A stretch of DNA of 45,782 bases from a virus. The notes under the pieces were generated by a model. The model saw nothing but the letters and a program-made list of their open reading frames with translations. It did not search any database and was not told the DNA's origin. The DNA lies in IMG/VR virus record IMGVR_UViG_3300033153_005646, positions 1-45,782 of that record; one strand, 5' to 3'. The translations under genes were made by a program, and so were the position numbers. This document shows positions 1,976 through 45,726 of the stretch, piece after piece (the first letter of the stretch is position 1; the number at the start of each line of letters is the position of its first letter).

Positions 1976-2713
1976 ATGGAAAAGAATATTGAAAAGACCA
2001 CGACAAAAAAGAAGAAAGCCACAACCAAAAAACCCTCGAAGTCCCCTGCAAAGAAAAAGGCGAAGAGAAAAGCGTCTGAAAAAACGTCGGTTCGCAAATA
2101 TAGACTCAGGCCCGAAGAAAGAATTTCGATCAAGAGCCGATTGGTTGCTCATTTTGGAAAAACTAAAGTCGCAACGGCCCTAAGTAATTGTAAGCTTAAA
2201 GCCGACCTAGATGCCGTTCTCCTGCAATGGAAAAGGAAACTTGAGCAAGAGATCGAAGACGAAGAAAGAAACGTCAATGAGTACTATACGCAAATTGACA
2301 AGGAATATAAGTCCGTAGGGCGACCAAAATCAGTTTTTAACTGGAAAGAATTCGATTATCTTTGTTCGATTGGTTGTACTTTAGAGGAAATGGCCGGGTT
2401 TTTTCAGCTATCAAAGTGCGAGCTTCAAAGAAAAGTTAAGCAAGAATATAGCGAAAGTTTCTCAGAATACTACGAAAAGAAATCCCAAGGAATAAAGATC
2501 GGTTTACGTCGTCGCCAAATCCAAGCGGCTATGGACGGCTCAGATACTATGCTTAAATTTTTAGGTAAAAACATACTAGGACAAAAAGAGAAACTTGACT
2601 TTGAAGGCGAAGTCAAAGTTAATTCATGGGTCGATTTAGTTAACAATTTAGACCCTAGCGAGAGCGAAAAGGATGCAAGCACAAATGAAGAACAAGCCGA
2701 AAACGAATCTTAA
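1976..2713 (+). CDS. terS: Terminase small subunit
   Basis: This 245-residue protein has a Lys-rich disordered N-terminus (about 1-37). A helical segment follows, then an HTH-like region beginning GRPKSVFNWKEFDYLCSIGC (about 115-134). The C-terminal block around DTMLKFLGKNILGQKEK (about 190-206) is the TMLKFLGK/LGQ signature common in small terminases. The protein recognises phage DNA and loads the large subunit for packaging. The poly-Lys tail is longer than usual and would add nonspecific DNA binding. The ribosome site AGGGAAA precedes ATG 1976. The large subunit follows after an unusual structured gap and one small gene. Confidence 0.85.
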   Translation: MEKNIEKTTTKKKKATTKKPSKSPAKKKAKRKASEKTSVRKYRLRPEERISIKSRLVAHFGKTKVATALSNCKLKADLDAVLLQWKRKLEQEIEDEERNVNEYYTQIDKEYKSVGRPKSVFNWKEFDYLCSIGCTLEEMAGFFQLSKCELQRKVKQEYSESFSEYYEKKSQGIKIGLRRRQIQAAMDGSDTMLKFLGKNILGQKEKLDFEGEVKVNSWVDLVNNLDPSESEKDASTNEEQAENES

Positions 2714-35854: not shown

Positions 35855-35922
35855 AATATTTAGTTATTTATATAATTATAATTTTAATAGTATCGATGTT
35901 TTTTAAGGGGGCAAAGTCATGA
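35851..35922 (+). CDS. 23-residue membrane micro-protein
   Basis: Starts ATG 35851, overlapping the previous stop. It is almost entirely a hydrophobic span (YLVIYIIIILIVSMFF) plus KGAKS. The last bases hold the AGGGGGC ribosome site of the methyltransferase and the stop overlaps its ATG (ATGA at 35919). It may be only a coupling frame, though a tiny membrane peptide is possible. Confidence 0.4.
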   Translation: MKYLVIYIIIILIVSMFFKGAKS

Positions 35923-36821
35923 AGTATTTTAGCACGTTTACAGGAATAGGCGGGTTCGAGCTTGCAATTCATGACACTTTAAAAGATGCAAAATGCGTCG
36001 GTTATTCTGAAATCGATAAATTTGCAATCGAAACCTATGAAAAGAATTTCCCAAGTCATAAGGGAAAGAATTTTGGCGATATTGAAAGGCTTGTTTTTGA
36101 TGTGGACAAGAAAGGAAATTTTACAGTAAACGAAGCAAGGGTTAAAAGTTTGCCAAATTTTGACTTGCTCGTTGGTGGCTCTAGTTGTCAAGACTTAAGC
36201 ATTGCGAAAGGCAATCGCCAAGGTCTGGCCGGAACAAAATCAAGGGTGTTTTTTGCTTATCTTGAAATTTTAAGAATTAAAAAACCTAAATATTTTATTC
36301 TTGAAAATGTCGCCAGTATGTCAAAAGAAAATAAAAATAAAATTACGGAGCTTATTGGTGTTGACCCGGAATTGATAAGCTCAGATAAGTTTACACCACA
36401 AAAAAGACGTCGCTTATATTGGTTTAATTGGGACTTGTCAGAACTGCCAAAAGAAGATGGCCCTCGCTGGCCTGGACTTGTCGCGTGGTCGTCTAGCAAT
36501 GATTATAATAAAGATGGCACTCATGACAAAAAAAGAGAGCGAGAGACAAGGGACGGGCGAGCTAACACATTAACAACCGGCCGAGGTTGTGGGTCTTATT
36601 CTAGTAAAAATTTTGTTGATGTTTTTAATGCGCCATTTGGAGAAAATGAAAAGAGAATTTTAAACCCAATAGAGTGCGAACAATTACAAGGCTTCCCGAT
36701 AAATTGGACTATTGGCGTCTCGGACACTCAACGCTATAAGCAATTAGGAAACGCCGTAAATGTTCCAACTATCAAGCATATATTTAAAAGATTTAACAAT
36801 CAAATAAAAATGGATTTATAA
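35919..36821 (+). CDS. C5-cytosine DNA methyltransferase
   Basis: 300 residues. SAM motif FTGIGGFE (7-14), catalytic motif IV GGSSCQDLS (Cys90; the usual Pro before Cys is Ser), motif VI LENV (128-131), motif VIII QKRRRLYW, and motif X QLGNAVNVP. The target-recognition region is short. It protects phage DNA from host restriction or changes regulation; no partner nuclease gene is adjacent apart from a VRR-NUC protein. The Pro-to-Ser change in motif IV occurs in some active enzymes. Confidence 0.9.
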   Translation: MKYFSTFTGIGGFELAIHDTLKDAKCVGYSEIDKFAIETYEKNFPSHKGKNFGDIERLVFDVDKKGNFTVNEARVKSLPNFDLLVGGSSCQDLSIAKGNRQGLAGTKSRVFFAYLEILRIKKPKYFILENVASMSKENKNKITELIGVDPELISSDKFTPQKRRRLYWFNWDLSELPKEDGPRWPGLVAWSSSNDYNKDGTHDKKRERETRDGRANTLTTGRGCGSYSSKNFVDVFNAPFGENEKRILNPIECEQLQGFPINWTIGVSDTQRYKQLGNAVNVPTIKHIFKRFNNQIKMDL

Positions 36822-43527: not shown

Positions 43528-43566
43528 CAAATTATTGCGTAAAAATTGCGAATTATTGCGAATTTT
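43528..43566. repeat. TTGCG tandem repeats
   Basis: Two imperfect 20-base units of ATTGC(A/G)AATTATTGCG plus A/T spacer occur back to back, giving four TTGC(A/G) blocks about 10 bases apart. They overlap the last codons of the gene at 43553. Phased repeats like these could bind an initiator or repressor. Confidence 0.55.
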
Positions 43567-43822
43567 CTGCCAATTTATTCTTCACAGTTGTTTCGATCGA
43601 TTCCAAGTCAACAACGTCGGAATTCTCTAAAAACCTTTCTAGCATGTAAATCATGAAGTCAACTTGCTCGGATTGGCCCAATAAATCAAAAAGATTCGAC
43701 TTTCTTAGGATTGCGTTCTCGATATTCTTTAAACGATCGGCGACGACGGTAATATTTAAACTTTTTTTAGGTAGCTTTGTTCTCTTTTTCTTGAAGCTTA
43801 TAATCTCATTTGTCATATCCAT
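43553..43822 (-). CDS. Hypothetical first gene of minus-strand operon
   Basis: 89 residues. Basic N-terminus (SFKKKRTKLPKKS), then helices (RLKNIENAILRKSNLFDLLGQSEQVDFMIYMLERFLENSDVVDLESIETTVKNKLAENSQ). No match recognised; early small basic proteins like this may bind DNA or a host factor. Driven by the near-consensus promoter at 43862-43890. Confidence 0.65.
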   Translation of the reverse strand: MDMTNEIISFKKKRTKLPKKSLNITVVADRLKNIENAILRKSNLFDLLGQSEQVDFMIYMLERFLENSDVVDLESIETTVKNKLAENSQ

Positions 43823-43890: not shown

Positions 43891-44000
43891 TTGATTTATA
43901 AATGAATTGAATTATTTTCACGTTTACATCATAAATAAGCGGGGCCGAGCATATATATCTCTGCGTGAGAACTTGCTAGGACTATAGGTAAGCTCATGAA

Positions 44001-44270
44001 ATCATTCGGGAATTACCCCTCTGTGCCCCGAGTCCTATATATATATAACTTAATGGAAATATTATTATTATTAGAGGGGTCTTTCTCCATAGAGTTATAT
44101 ATCCGGAAAATAGGGACTCAGGGGCACACATTTATACAAACCCCTTGATATCATTCGATTTAACGCGTGCCCCAACGTGAGTCCCGTGAGTCCCTGCTAT
44201 GCGTAAACGTAACGATATCATATGGTTAATAGGGACTCACGTGTTGCGTTGTGAATAATAGGATCATTCG
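44001..44270. repeat. Alternating inverted-repeat array with AT-rich core, origin-like
   Basis: Blocks sharing GTGCCCC and/or GAGTCCC-TAT elements alternate in strand: A 44022-44038 (+), B 44110-44128 (-), C 44167-44200 (+, with GTGAGTCCC twice in tandem), D 44229-44243 (-, half unit). A and B enclose a further 10-bp inverted repeat (ATATATAACT, ending 44050, and AGTTATATAT at 44093-44102) and an AT-rich middle. ATCATTCG occurs three times (44001, 44150, 44263). No ORF crosses it. This resembles a replication origin or a master control site; the left minus promoter is about 110 bases away. Confidence 0.6.
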
Positions 44271-44390: not shown

Positions 44391-44419
44391 TTGACAGGAT
44401 TTTGATTGTGTATTAATTT
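44391..44419 (+). promoter_or_regulatory. Promoter of a candidate non-coding RNA
   Basis: TTGACA at 44391-44396, 17 bases, then TAATTT at 44414-44419. No gene with a ribosome site follows; instead a structured stretch ends at the terminator near 44598-44624, so an RNA of about 200 bases is expected. Confidence 0.6.
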
Positions 44420-44425
44420 GATCCC

Positions 44426-44624
44426 GTTAAGACGTTCGATTAATTGGTTAAGGAAAAACCACCCCGAATTAATTTTCGGTCTGAGAAATAAACGTCAGTC
44501 TTACAAGTACCGGGTCGAACGGTAATCTTGTCGCCAGTAGCTAGGTCGTAAAGGGGGTTCCAGATTATGTCTCCTCAAAGCTATAAATGATAATCCAAAA
44601 GACTTGCGAGGGTCTTTATTTTTG
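44426..44624 (+). ncRNA. Candidate structured ncRNA (promoter, folds, terminator)
   Basis: Nested pairings: GACGTT (44431-44436) with AACGTC (44491-44496); inside it ATTAATT (44439-44445) with AATTAAT (44467-44473) and GGTT with AACC. Next, ACAAG (44503-44507) with CTTGT (44527-44531), enclosing ACCG-GGTCGAA-CGGT. It ends with AAAGAC (44598-44603) and GTCTTT (44612-44617), then ATTTTTG. The ACCG hairpin loop recalls a tRNA T-arm, but the whole is not a tRNA. No known RNA family recognised. Confidence 0.6.
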
Positions 44625-44626
44625 TT

Positions 44627-44663
44627 TGTCGTTCTTTGATATGCAAAAAAACGACACCTTTTT
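44627..44663 (+). terminator. Second terminator-like hairpin
   Basis: TGTCGTT (44627-44633) pairs perfectly with AACGACA (44650-44656), followed by CCTTTTT. It would stop transcripts that read past 44624, or be the first domain of the next RNA. Confidence 0.55.
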
Positions 44664-44733
44664 ACTTGAAACCTGTTTTAGTTCAGAGTGTTCTTTTGAG
44701 GGTAATCAAAAAAGCGGAAAAAAACTTAACAAG

Positions 44734-44812
44734 ATTCTGGTAACTGCACCGTGGAATTTTTTATTGTTTATGAGCTCTAAAAAATTGACGACAAAGCTAC
44801 CAGAATTTTTTT
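44734..44812 (+). ncRNA. Long two-stem RNA hairpin ending in T-run
   Basis: ATTCTGGTA (44734-44742) pairs perfectly with TACCAGAAT (44798-44806), followed by six T. Inside it AATTTTTTA (44755-44763) pairs perfectly with TAAAAAATT (44778-44786). Two exact 9-bp stems in one hairpin plus a T-run make it either an RNA 3' end or a strong terminator. A frame across it (44587-44820) has the composition of folded RNA, not a gene. Confidence 0.6.
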
Positions 44813-44816
44813 ATGT

Positions 44817-44870
44817 TTAAATTGCTAGGAAAGTAACCGATTCCGGAGTTGGCCAAACCTAGCAATTTAA
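44817..44870. repeat. Perfect 13-bp inverted repeat
   Basis: TTAAATTGCTAGG (44817-44829) and CCTAGCAATTTAA (44858-44870) are exact complements with a 28-base loop that contains CCGATTCCGG and GGCC. It follows the previous T-run directly. As RNA it is a stable stem; as DNA it could be a protein site. Confidence 0.7.
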
Positions 44871-44894
44871 GCACCATTAATTTGATTCATTTTT

Positions 44895-44915
44895 TAGCGT
44901 TTTGCGAAAACGCTA
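44895..44915. repeat. Perfect 9-bp hairpin TAGCGTTTT/AAAACGCTA
   Basis: Arms 44895-44903 and 44907-44915 with loop GCG. A T-run lies before it on the plus strand and no T-run follows, so it is not a plus-strand terminator. It may be the start of the next structured RNA. Confidence 0.6.
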
Positions 44916-45023
44916 CTTTCATACTGTTTGACTGGTTTGTGAAAGGGCCACGAGGACTTTAGGGTTGAGACGGATAGCTCACTGGTCATGACCGAGCAAA
45001 ACGAAGCAAAGGCCCAAAAACGG

Positions 45024-45219
45024 CACTGATAATGCTAGAGATTGGTTATATCTAGGTAAACGATTAACCCTATGACAACAAACAACGGTTATCAGTGTAG
45101 CAAAAGAGAGTTTAGGTTTGGGGATGATCTTGAAGCTTTTTGGTAAAAGCAATCATTAGCTAAGTGAGAGATTGGCGTTTTCGATTTTCGCCCAAGGTAT
45201 CAAATCTAAACTCTCTTTT
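45024..45219 (+). ncRNA. Candidate structured ncRNA with 14-bp closing stem and T-run
   Basis: First domain: CACTGATAA (45024-45032) with TTATCAGTG (45089-45097), holding inner helices such as CTAGA/TCTAG. Second domain: a perfect 14-bp stem, AAAAGAGAGTTTAG (45102-45115) with CTAAACTCTCTTTT (45206-45219), enclosing GCTTTT-TGGT-AAAAGC and a TTGGCG/CGCC-CAA hairpin, and ending in TTT after the stem. No reading frame fits. Upstream bases from about 44930 may belong to it (GCTC/GAGC and GGTC-AT-GACC stems near 44977-44998). No promoter was found. Confidence 0.55.
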
Positions 45220-45304
45220 TTTCTTATTATGTCCGACCGATCCTTTTAACAATTAACGAATGTCAGTGTGTGTAATACTTTTTCGAGGGTCGGCCGGGCA
45301 CCAT

Positions 45305-45333
45305 TTGACAAGCCATATAATCCATTAAATAAT
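45305..45333 (+). promoter_or_regulatory. Promoter of a small RNA
   Basis: TTGACA at 45305-45310, 17 bases, AATAAT at 45328-45333. The expected start near 45340 is about 85 bases before a strong terminator. Confidence 0.65.
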
Positions 45334-45339
45334 TCATTT

Positions 45340-45424
45340 GTGTGTGTGTTGAAATTTGCCTATGCGAATTTCTCCTTATGTCTCTCAGAAAGGCCCAGAA
45401 TCCGTATTTCTTGGGCCTTTTTTA
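45340..45424 (+). ncRNA. Small two-hairpin RNA with strong terminator
   Basis: After the promoter at 45305, GAAATTTGC (45351-45359) pairs with GCGAATTTC (45364-45372), one wobble, loop CTAT. AAAGGCCCA (45389-45397) then pairs perfectly with TGGGCCTTT (45412-45420), followed by a T-run. A short linker (CTCCTTATGTCTCTC) lies unpaired between the hairpins, where base pairing with a target could occur. It looks like a bacterial regulatory sRNA of about 85 bases. Confidence 0.65.
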
Positions 45425-45510
45425 TTTCCGAATACATTTTACTTGGTTTTAGTTTTGGGGTTGCTAGGGGGCGGGCTTGGGCGTATAAGGTCGGATAAAA
45501 CGGGGGTTGC

Positions 45511-45726
45511 ATGACAAAAGAAGAATTAATAAACCTTATTGATGGAATGGGCTGTGATTGGTTCAAGGTTGATATTAAATTGCAATCACCACCTAGAATT
45601 ACCGAGACTGTAGACATTCGTCGAGGGCCAATCTACCCGCCGCAACCCTTTACGTCGAAAACAATTGTAGGTGTGGAAAGTTTTGAATTTAATGTTAGCG
45701 GATATGTAAACCAACAAAAAGGATAA
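45511..45726 (+). CDS. Small hypothetical protein (first gene after the non-coding region)
   Basis: 71 residues: MTKEELINLIDGMGCDWFKV, then a Pro-rich middle (ITETVDIRRGPIYPPQPFTSKTIVGVE) and FEFNVSGYVNQQKG. Soluble, unknown family. GGGGG lies 5-9 bases upstream of the ATG. In the circular molecule its end is also bases 1-58 of this window, and the gene at 65 follows 6 bases later, so the two form one unit. Confidence 0.7.
   Translation: MTKEELINLIDGMGCDWFKVDIKLQSPPRITETVDIRRGPIYPPQPFTSKTIVGVESFEFNVSGYVNQQKG

Follow-up and report, generated by a model that had tools for sequence, protein, structure and literature searches.

A phage non-coding RNA locus with a homologue of a chromosomal small RNA of Bacteriovoracales

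The phage genome and the setting of the locus

The window, meaning the whole stretch of viral DNA analysed (45,782 nucleotides), is a complete phage genome and can be read as a circle, since the 114 bases at its start recur without change at its end; the circular unit is 45,668 bp. Its genes include those for a terminase, a portal, a head protease, a tail sheath, a RecE-like exonuclease, a Sak4-like protein, a helicase and a primase and, judged by this gene set, the phage is contractile-tailed. A C5 cytosine DNA methyltransferase gene is present at 35919-36821 (Pfam E=2.8e-44). No near relative was found among the GenBank phages searched (the top terminase match is 30% identical), no nucleotide-level relatives in phage and plasmid records, and no tRNA or tmRNA in the window.

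The 1.7-kb gap that holds the RNA locus has a leftward gene (43553-43822) on one side and, on the other, a rightward gene that begins at 45511. Two related phages were recovered, L003 by a terminase search (its terminase is 76-80% identical to that of the window) and L006 by means of a sequence pattern drawn from the last element of the locus. All three phages have a common layout, consisting of a small leftward gene (39-42% identity across the related phages), an AT-rich repeat region, the RNA stretch and an Rrf2-type regulator gene (43-45% identity, with a Pfam Rrf2 match in the window). Two further Rrf2 matches (L009 and L010) were rejected as unrelated, being iscR-type host genes of other bacteria. 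Directly upstream of the RNA locus, each phage carries dense direct and inverted repeats with a motif of its own: AATAGGGACTCA in the window (43950-44245), GGTAACGGCC in L003 (about 900-1200), and GTTACACC and GGCCGTAACC in L006 (about 2660-2330, minus strand). These repeats may be a replication origin or an operator cluster, with the motif swapped between relatives. The locus of the window is also adjoined by genes for a 202-aa histidine-kinase-type ATPase protein (502-1110) and an Rrf2/IscR-type regulator (1354-1749), both putative phage-borne host-signalling proteins.

A stem-rich stretch devoid of recognisable genes

Within 1040 nt (44391-45430) there are 8 perfect stems of at least 9 bp, as against 0.58 +/- 0.76 (maximum 3) in dinucleotide shuffles of the stretch and 0.81 +/- 0.98 (maximum 4) in other 1040-nt stretches of the same phage. 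The excess of stems described in a first-pass annotation of this DNA is therefore real, and all the promoters, hairpins and T-runs that it had listed from 44391 to about 45425 were found where it placed them. It had also called the stretch gene-free; indeed, the three small ORFs that overlap it have no PHROG match and no gene is recognisable. Folding energy singles out no more than 44726-44875, 45201 and 45326-45450 (z of -3 to -6). Searching the stretch against Rfam 15, at both gathering and permissive thresholds, returned nothing credible. A consensus terminator scan of the region gave zero sites on the plus strand, at least in part since it permits loops of at most 8, so that the term "terminator" is used here from reading of the sequence. 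The stretch is several distinct things and not one.

The first element, RNA1

A promoter-like sequence on the plus strand (44391-44419) was read as TTGACA (44391-44396), a spacer of 17 nt and TAATTT (44414-44419); the TTGACA and a GTATTAA of this region are kept in L003. It precedes RNA1, a phage-specific structured RNA on the plus strand that ends in a hairpin and a T-run, with inferred ends at about 44420 and 44624. RNA1 is conserved in L003 (1384-1632), and 10 of the 48 consensus pairs given by RNAalifold on this longer alignment are changed on both sides. Its core (44497-44600, plus strand, compared with L003 1501-1606; model R2) comprises three helices and a conserved loop motif, GCCAGTANCNAGGTYGTAAAGGGG. 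Between the window and L003 the 21 pairs of the core show five double-sided changes and no broken pair, and in a control where the partner was slid by 1-3 columns 31-52% of cells were paired. The folding energy of RNA1 is unremarkable (44420-44624, z -0.3); support comes from conservation. RNA1 is very probably a real structured RNA, on covariation that comes from two sequences and is good but not final. Pattern and model searches found it in none of 129 genomes of Bacteriovoracales, the likely hosts (see below), and on this ground the idea that RNA1 copies a host RNA was rejected.

At the position of RNA1, L006 carries a tRNA-like gene whose anticodon loop is abnormal (2097-2171, minus strand; Rfam tRNA 29.6 bits, ARAGORN "tRNA-???"), which may be a tRNA decoy. 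Additionally, a second structured RNA (RNA2; model R3, motif GGCGTARTTCGATATTGGRCGCCAGG) is found in L003 (1683-1802) and in L006 (1920-2040, minus strand) and is missing from the window and from the 129 host genomes; as a host copy it was likewise rejected (0/129). Because the place of RNA1 is taken by the tRNA-like gene in L006, and RNA2 is present in L003 and L006 and not in the window, the locus seems to accommodate interchangeable structured RNAs, among which the last element, a version of a host small RNA (sRNA), is the one constant across the three phages available.

The middle hairpins

A 7-bp hairpin (TGTCGTT/AACGACA, 44627-44656) and the T-run that follows it (to 44664, plus strand), read from the sequence and lacking relatives, are a possible second transcript end. 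They are followed on the plus strand by two perfect 9-bp stems (44734-44742/44798-44806 and 44755-44763/44778-44786) with a T-run, the whole at 44734-44815; a folding window starting at 44776 has a z of about -6. A perfect 13-bp inverted repeat, TTAAATTGCTAGG/CCTAGCAATTTAA (44817-44829/44858-44870), could be an RNA or a DNA site and, like the perfect 9-bp hairpin TAGCGTTTT-GCG-AAAACGCTA at 44895-44915, is assigned to neither strand. Last come stems of 9 bp (45024-45032/45089-45097) and 14 bp (45102-45115/45206-45219) with a T-run at the end (45024-45226, plus strand). None of these structures has relatives either: scores of the middle hairpins against L003 and L006 fall inside the shuffle range, and the 129 host genomes yield only chance matches of 24-34 nt. 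Their stems are beyond chance, and they are probably transcript ends or unconserved parts of RNAs.

The first-pass annotation had proposed a non-coding locus with more than one structured RNA. That proposal is upheld, and for the first and last elements a comparison with related phages, where a coding gene and an absence of compensatory changes would have spoken otherwise, favours the RNA reading. Conservation of every stem is not supported, since the middle hairpins (44627-45219) have no relatives in either phage or in the 129 host genomes, and an anti-defence role for the RNAs of the locus is not supported.

The last element

The best promoter of the region is sigma70-like and lies at 45305-45333 on the plus strand (TTGACA, 17 nt, AATAAT; 11 of 12 consensus matches). 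The RNA downstream (45340-45425, plus strand) begins with an unpaired 5' (GU)n tract (45340-45349), which is conserved in host and phage copies. It continues with a hairpin, GAAATTTGC-CTAT-GCGAATTTC (45351-45372), which is devoid of GGA and replaces an AGGA-loop hairpin of the host copies, and with the single-stranded motif AUGUCUCUCA (45378-45387), which is common to the host copies and varies in some diverged hosts. It ends in a terminator hairpin and T-run (45389-45425) with a perfect 9-bp stem (45389-45397/45412-45420). Having its own promoter and terminator, the element looks independent, in agreement with the separate sRNA first proposed here.

All three phage copies retain, in this order, the GU tract, AUGUCUCUC and a terminator, and AUGUCUCUCA is present in each of them. 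The hairpin between them keeps its position and still folds with a changed sequence, and none of the three has a GGA in the 5' half. An AATAAT box lies 6 nt upstream of the GU tract in each copy; a perfect TTGACA 17 nt further upstream is present in the window, whereas L003 and L006 are without a clear -35 box. The possibility that translation of a small protein starts at AUGUCUCUC was rejected, as the downstream peptides differ or stop at once in L003 and L006, and a coding reading is also opposed by third codon positions that hardly vary within the motif.

A chromosomal sRNA family of Bacteriovoracales

The strict pattern TTTGTGTGTGTG-N10-40-ATGTCTCTCA was searched in 84,980 bacterial and archaeal genomes (257 billion bases) and matched at only two places, both in Bacteriovoracaceae MAGs and both with ordinary chromosomal surroundings; elsewhere it occurs only in two related phages. 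NCBI taxonomy places this family in the order Bacteriovoracales of the Bdellovibrionota. Those Bacteriovoracales that have been studied are predators of other bacteria. A looser pattern matched 67 of 129 Bacteriovoracales genomes, a few of the matches being due to chance (e.g. extra ones in G008, G014 and G082), versus none for a reversed-pattern control. A covariance model, R1, was then built from 21 host copies and no phage copies. Across the phylum it detects the RNA in 97/129 Bacteriovoracales genomes and in 0 of about 240 others. Two copies (L092 and C1:419900) occur in a single genome, G028, where both have ordinary chromosomal surroundings and adjoin an arginase-type gene.

The host RNA is about 90 nt long and consists of an unpaired 5' (GU)n tract, a hairpin, an unpaired AAUGUCUCUC and a terminator. 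RNAalifold returned no structure from the host alignment, probably owing to misaligned terminators, and single folds with a hand-set structure were used instead. A sigma54 promoter (TGGCAC-N5-TTGC) is situated 10-13 nt before the GU tract at 26 of 28 loci, and at 35 of a further 39 that are more diverged; the predicted start of the RNA at the GU tract follows from this distance. The loop of the hairpin is AGGA at every host locus checked (28/28 and 39/39). AGGA is the core of the CsrA site (ARGGAU), and CsrA was found in 20 of 20 host genomes tested. Hfq was detected in none of the same 20 (both searches included a positive control), from which it follows that sRNAs in Bacteriovoracales would have to work without the usual chaperone. 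The genes that flank the host sRNA vary between clades, which marks it as a free-standing gene. A search for an mRNA target paired through two seeds gave 11 of 129 host genomes, about equal to the reversed control. To our knowledge, few sRNAs have been described in such predatory bacteria. No report of this host sRNA was found in the open-access papers searched, and a study of Bdellovibrio describes sRNAs that lack relatives in other genomes (PMC3627812).

Homology and host assignment

The host-only model R1 finds the window RNA at 45340-45422 (52.6 bits, E=1.4e-9) and the copies in L003 (E=6e-6) and L006 (E=3.5e-5); nothing else has an E below 0.9. Together with the ordered GU tract, AUGUCUCUC and terminator, this makes it almost certain, as far as sequence comparison goes, that 45340-45425 is homologous to the chromosomal sRNA of Bacteriovoracales. 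Two features of the family are absent. The AGGA loop of hairpin 1 is found in 67/67 host loci and 0/3 phages, and the sigma54 promoter 10-13 nt upstream is found at none of the phage copies, its place in the window being held by TTGACA/AATAAT. Because the AGGA loop is missing, the phage RNA is filed as a homologue or variant rather than an ordinary member. The first-pass annotation had recognised no known family. This is correct for Rfam 15 but does not hold for the last RNA, which belongs to a chromosomal family of Bacteriovoracales and escaped recognition because that family is not in Rfam.

The host of the phage is likely to be found within Bacteriovoracales, an assignment that depends mainly on the sRNA; a search of the 129 host genomes for terminase kin (prophages) gave one distant match only. 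A 17-nt run, TTCTCCTTATGTCTCTC, common to the window copy and one host subgroup, hints at the host clade. The copies of L003 and L006 are close kin around the sRNA, so that the loss of AGGA among the three phages may represent two events or one.

Proposed mechanism and alternative readings

With homology and host assignment at its core, the combined reading is one that we favour with modest confidence: the stretch would be a phage non-coding RNA locus whose best-understood product is a sigma54-independent, CsrA-blind phage version of an order-wide Bacteriovoracales sRNA. The host sRNA would be made only upon sigma54 activation and, to judge from its loop, be read by CsrA through AGGA. The phage sRNA would be made from a sigma70-type promoter whatever the state of the host. 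As the GU tract, AUGUCUCUC and terminator are kept while the CsrA site is missing, it would reach the partners of the host sRNA (mRNAs or a protein) free of CsrA control. The host circuit would then be switched on out of turn, or the host sRNA displaced. That the phage RNA actually works as such a version is a tentative proposal, somewhat short of an even chance. Carriage of an altered host sRNA suggests that the phage seizes one host regulatory circuit. More speculatively, a core host sRNA that has lost its CsrA site and come under sigma70 instead of sigma54 control might form part of an RNA locus (RNA1 and others) that reprograms the regulatory state of the predator during infection, a takeover of a host sRNA circuit by homologous imitation in bacteria without detectable Hfq. 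Since activators of sigma54 are often under histidine kinase control, the histidine-kinase-type ATPase beside the locus, together with the Rrf2 regulator, may bear on the mechanism, as a lead only.

The same conservation of partner-binding motifs, combined with loss of the most conserved host element (AGGA), would also be expected of a dominant-negative competitor, which would take up the partner of the GU and AUGUCUCUC elements and so keep the host sRNA from acting; the evidence fits agonist action equally well, and we consider the competitor unlikely. Phages do pick up host genes, and a hairpin that has diverged beyond recognition and lost AGGA could indicate a mere passenger, an acquired sRNA gene that is decaying and has no present role. 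However, decay would strike the motifs too, whereas the unpaired motifs are kept letter for letter beside a changed hairpin that still folds, in three phages with terminases at most 76-80% identical (window and L003), and each copy has a good terminator and an AATAAT box at a fixed distance. A passenger is therefore quite improbable. Alternatively, the hairpins could be DNA sites (operators, origin or packaging) with incidental T-runs: palindromic repeats extend upstream (44041-44242), and at 44726 both strands fold about equally well. This is possible for 44817-44915 but fits neither the sRNA homologue nor the compensatory changes of RNA1, and for the hairpins at large it is improbable indeed. 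Finally, dense stems downstream of a single promoter with no gene, and the occurrence of such RNAs in phages, might suggest that 44420-45219 (0.8 kb) is one large ornate RNA of the GOLLD, ROOL or OLE type with the sRNA as a separate neighbour, but this is very improbable given that there is no Rfam match, that T-run hairpins near 44624, 44664, 44815 and 45226 would cut the transcript, that conservation in L003 is limited to the first ~200 nt and does not reach the middle, and that a tRNA-like gene and another RNA hold this place in L006.

Significance and comparison with known systems

The locus has brought to light an sRNA family outside Rfam, present in most genomes of a predatory order, whose sigma54 promoter is clear and whose CsrA-type loop is invariant, and also phages that carry this RNA minus exactly its two apparent regulatory inputs, the promoter and the AGGA loop. 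The open-access papers searched describe no phage-borne homologue of a chromosomal sRNA that lacks the control parts. Comparison of the phage and host copies suggests how the host sRNA divides into acting and controlling parts, and the locus opens a direct experiment on phage rewiring of a host RNA circuit. Furthermore, the sRNA is a sequence handle that ties otherwise hostless phage contigs to predatory bacteria.

Large ornate phage RNAs of the GOLLD and ROOL type are single conserved structured RNAs of several hundred nt; here about 200 nt are conserved in one relative, next to an unconserved middle. The sigma54-driven, trans-acting Qrr sRNAs of Vibrio (~100 nt) resemble the host sRNA; nevertheless there is no sequence match, Qrr sRNAs need Hfq, and the phage copy does not look sigma54-driven. 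Like CsrA-sequestering sRNAs of the CsrB/RsmY/McaS type, the host RNA exposes GGA in a hairpin loop in organisms that possess CsrA, but its GGA motifs number just one or two. The phage RNA, whose 5' half is free of them, cannot titrate CsrA in this way. RNA anti-CRISPRs (Racrs) are also phage RNAs that imitate host RNAs; in their case CRISPR repeats are imitated and Cas proteins bound, whereas the window RNA imitates a chromosomal regulatory sRNA.

Interference of phage sRNAs with host sRNAs has precedents, AgvB imitating targets and others binding or destabilising host sRNAs (PMC12197685). AgvB and AsxR, from EHEC prophages, are likewise phage-borne and act on a host sRNA circuit (PMC12197685). 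In the window RNA the motifs of the host sRNA are present in sense orientation; it is not complementary to the host sRNA as a sponge would be. AgvB is a sponge that mimics the mRNA targets of GcvB and competes for Hfq (PMC12197685), whereas the window RNA imitates the sRNA itself, in hosts where Hfq was not detected.
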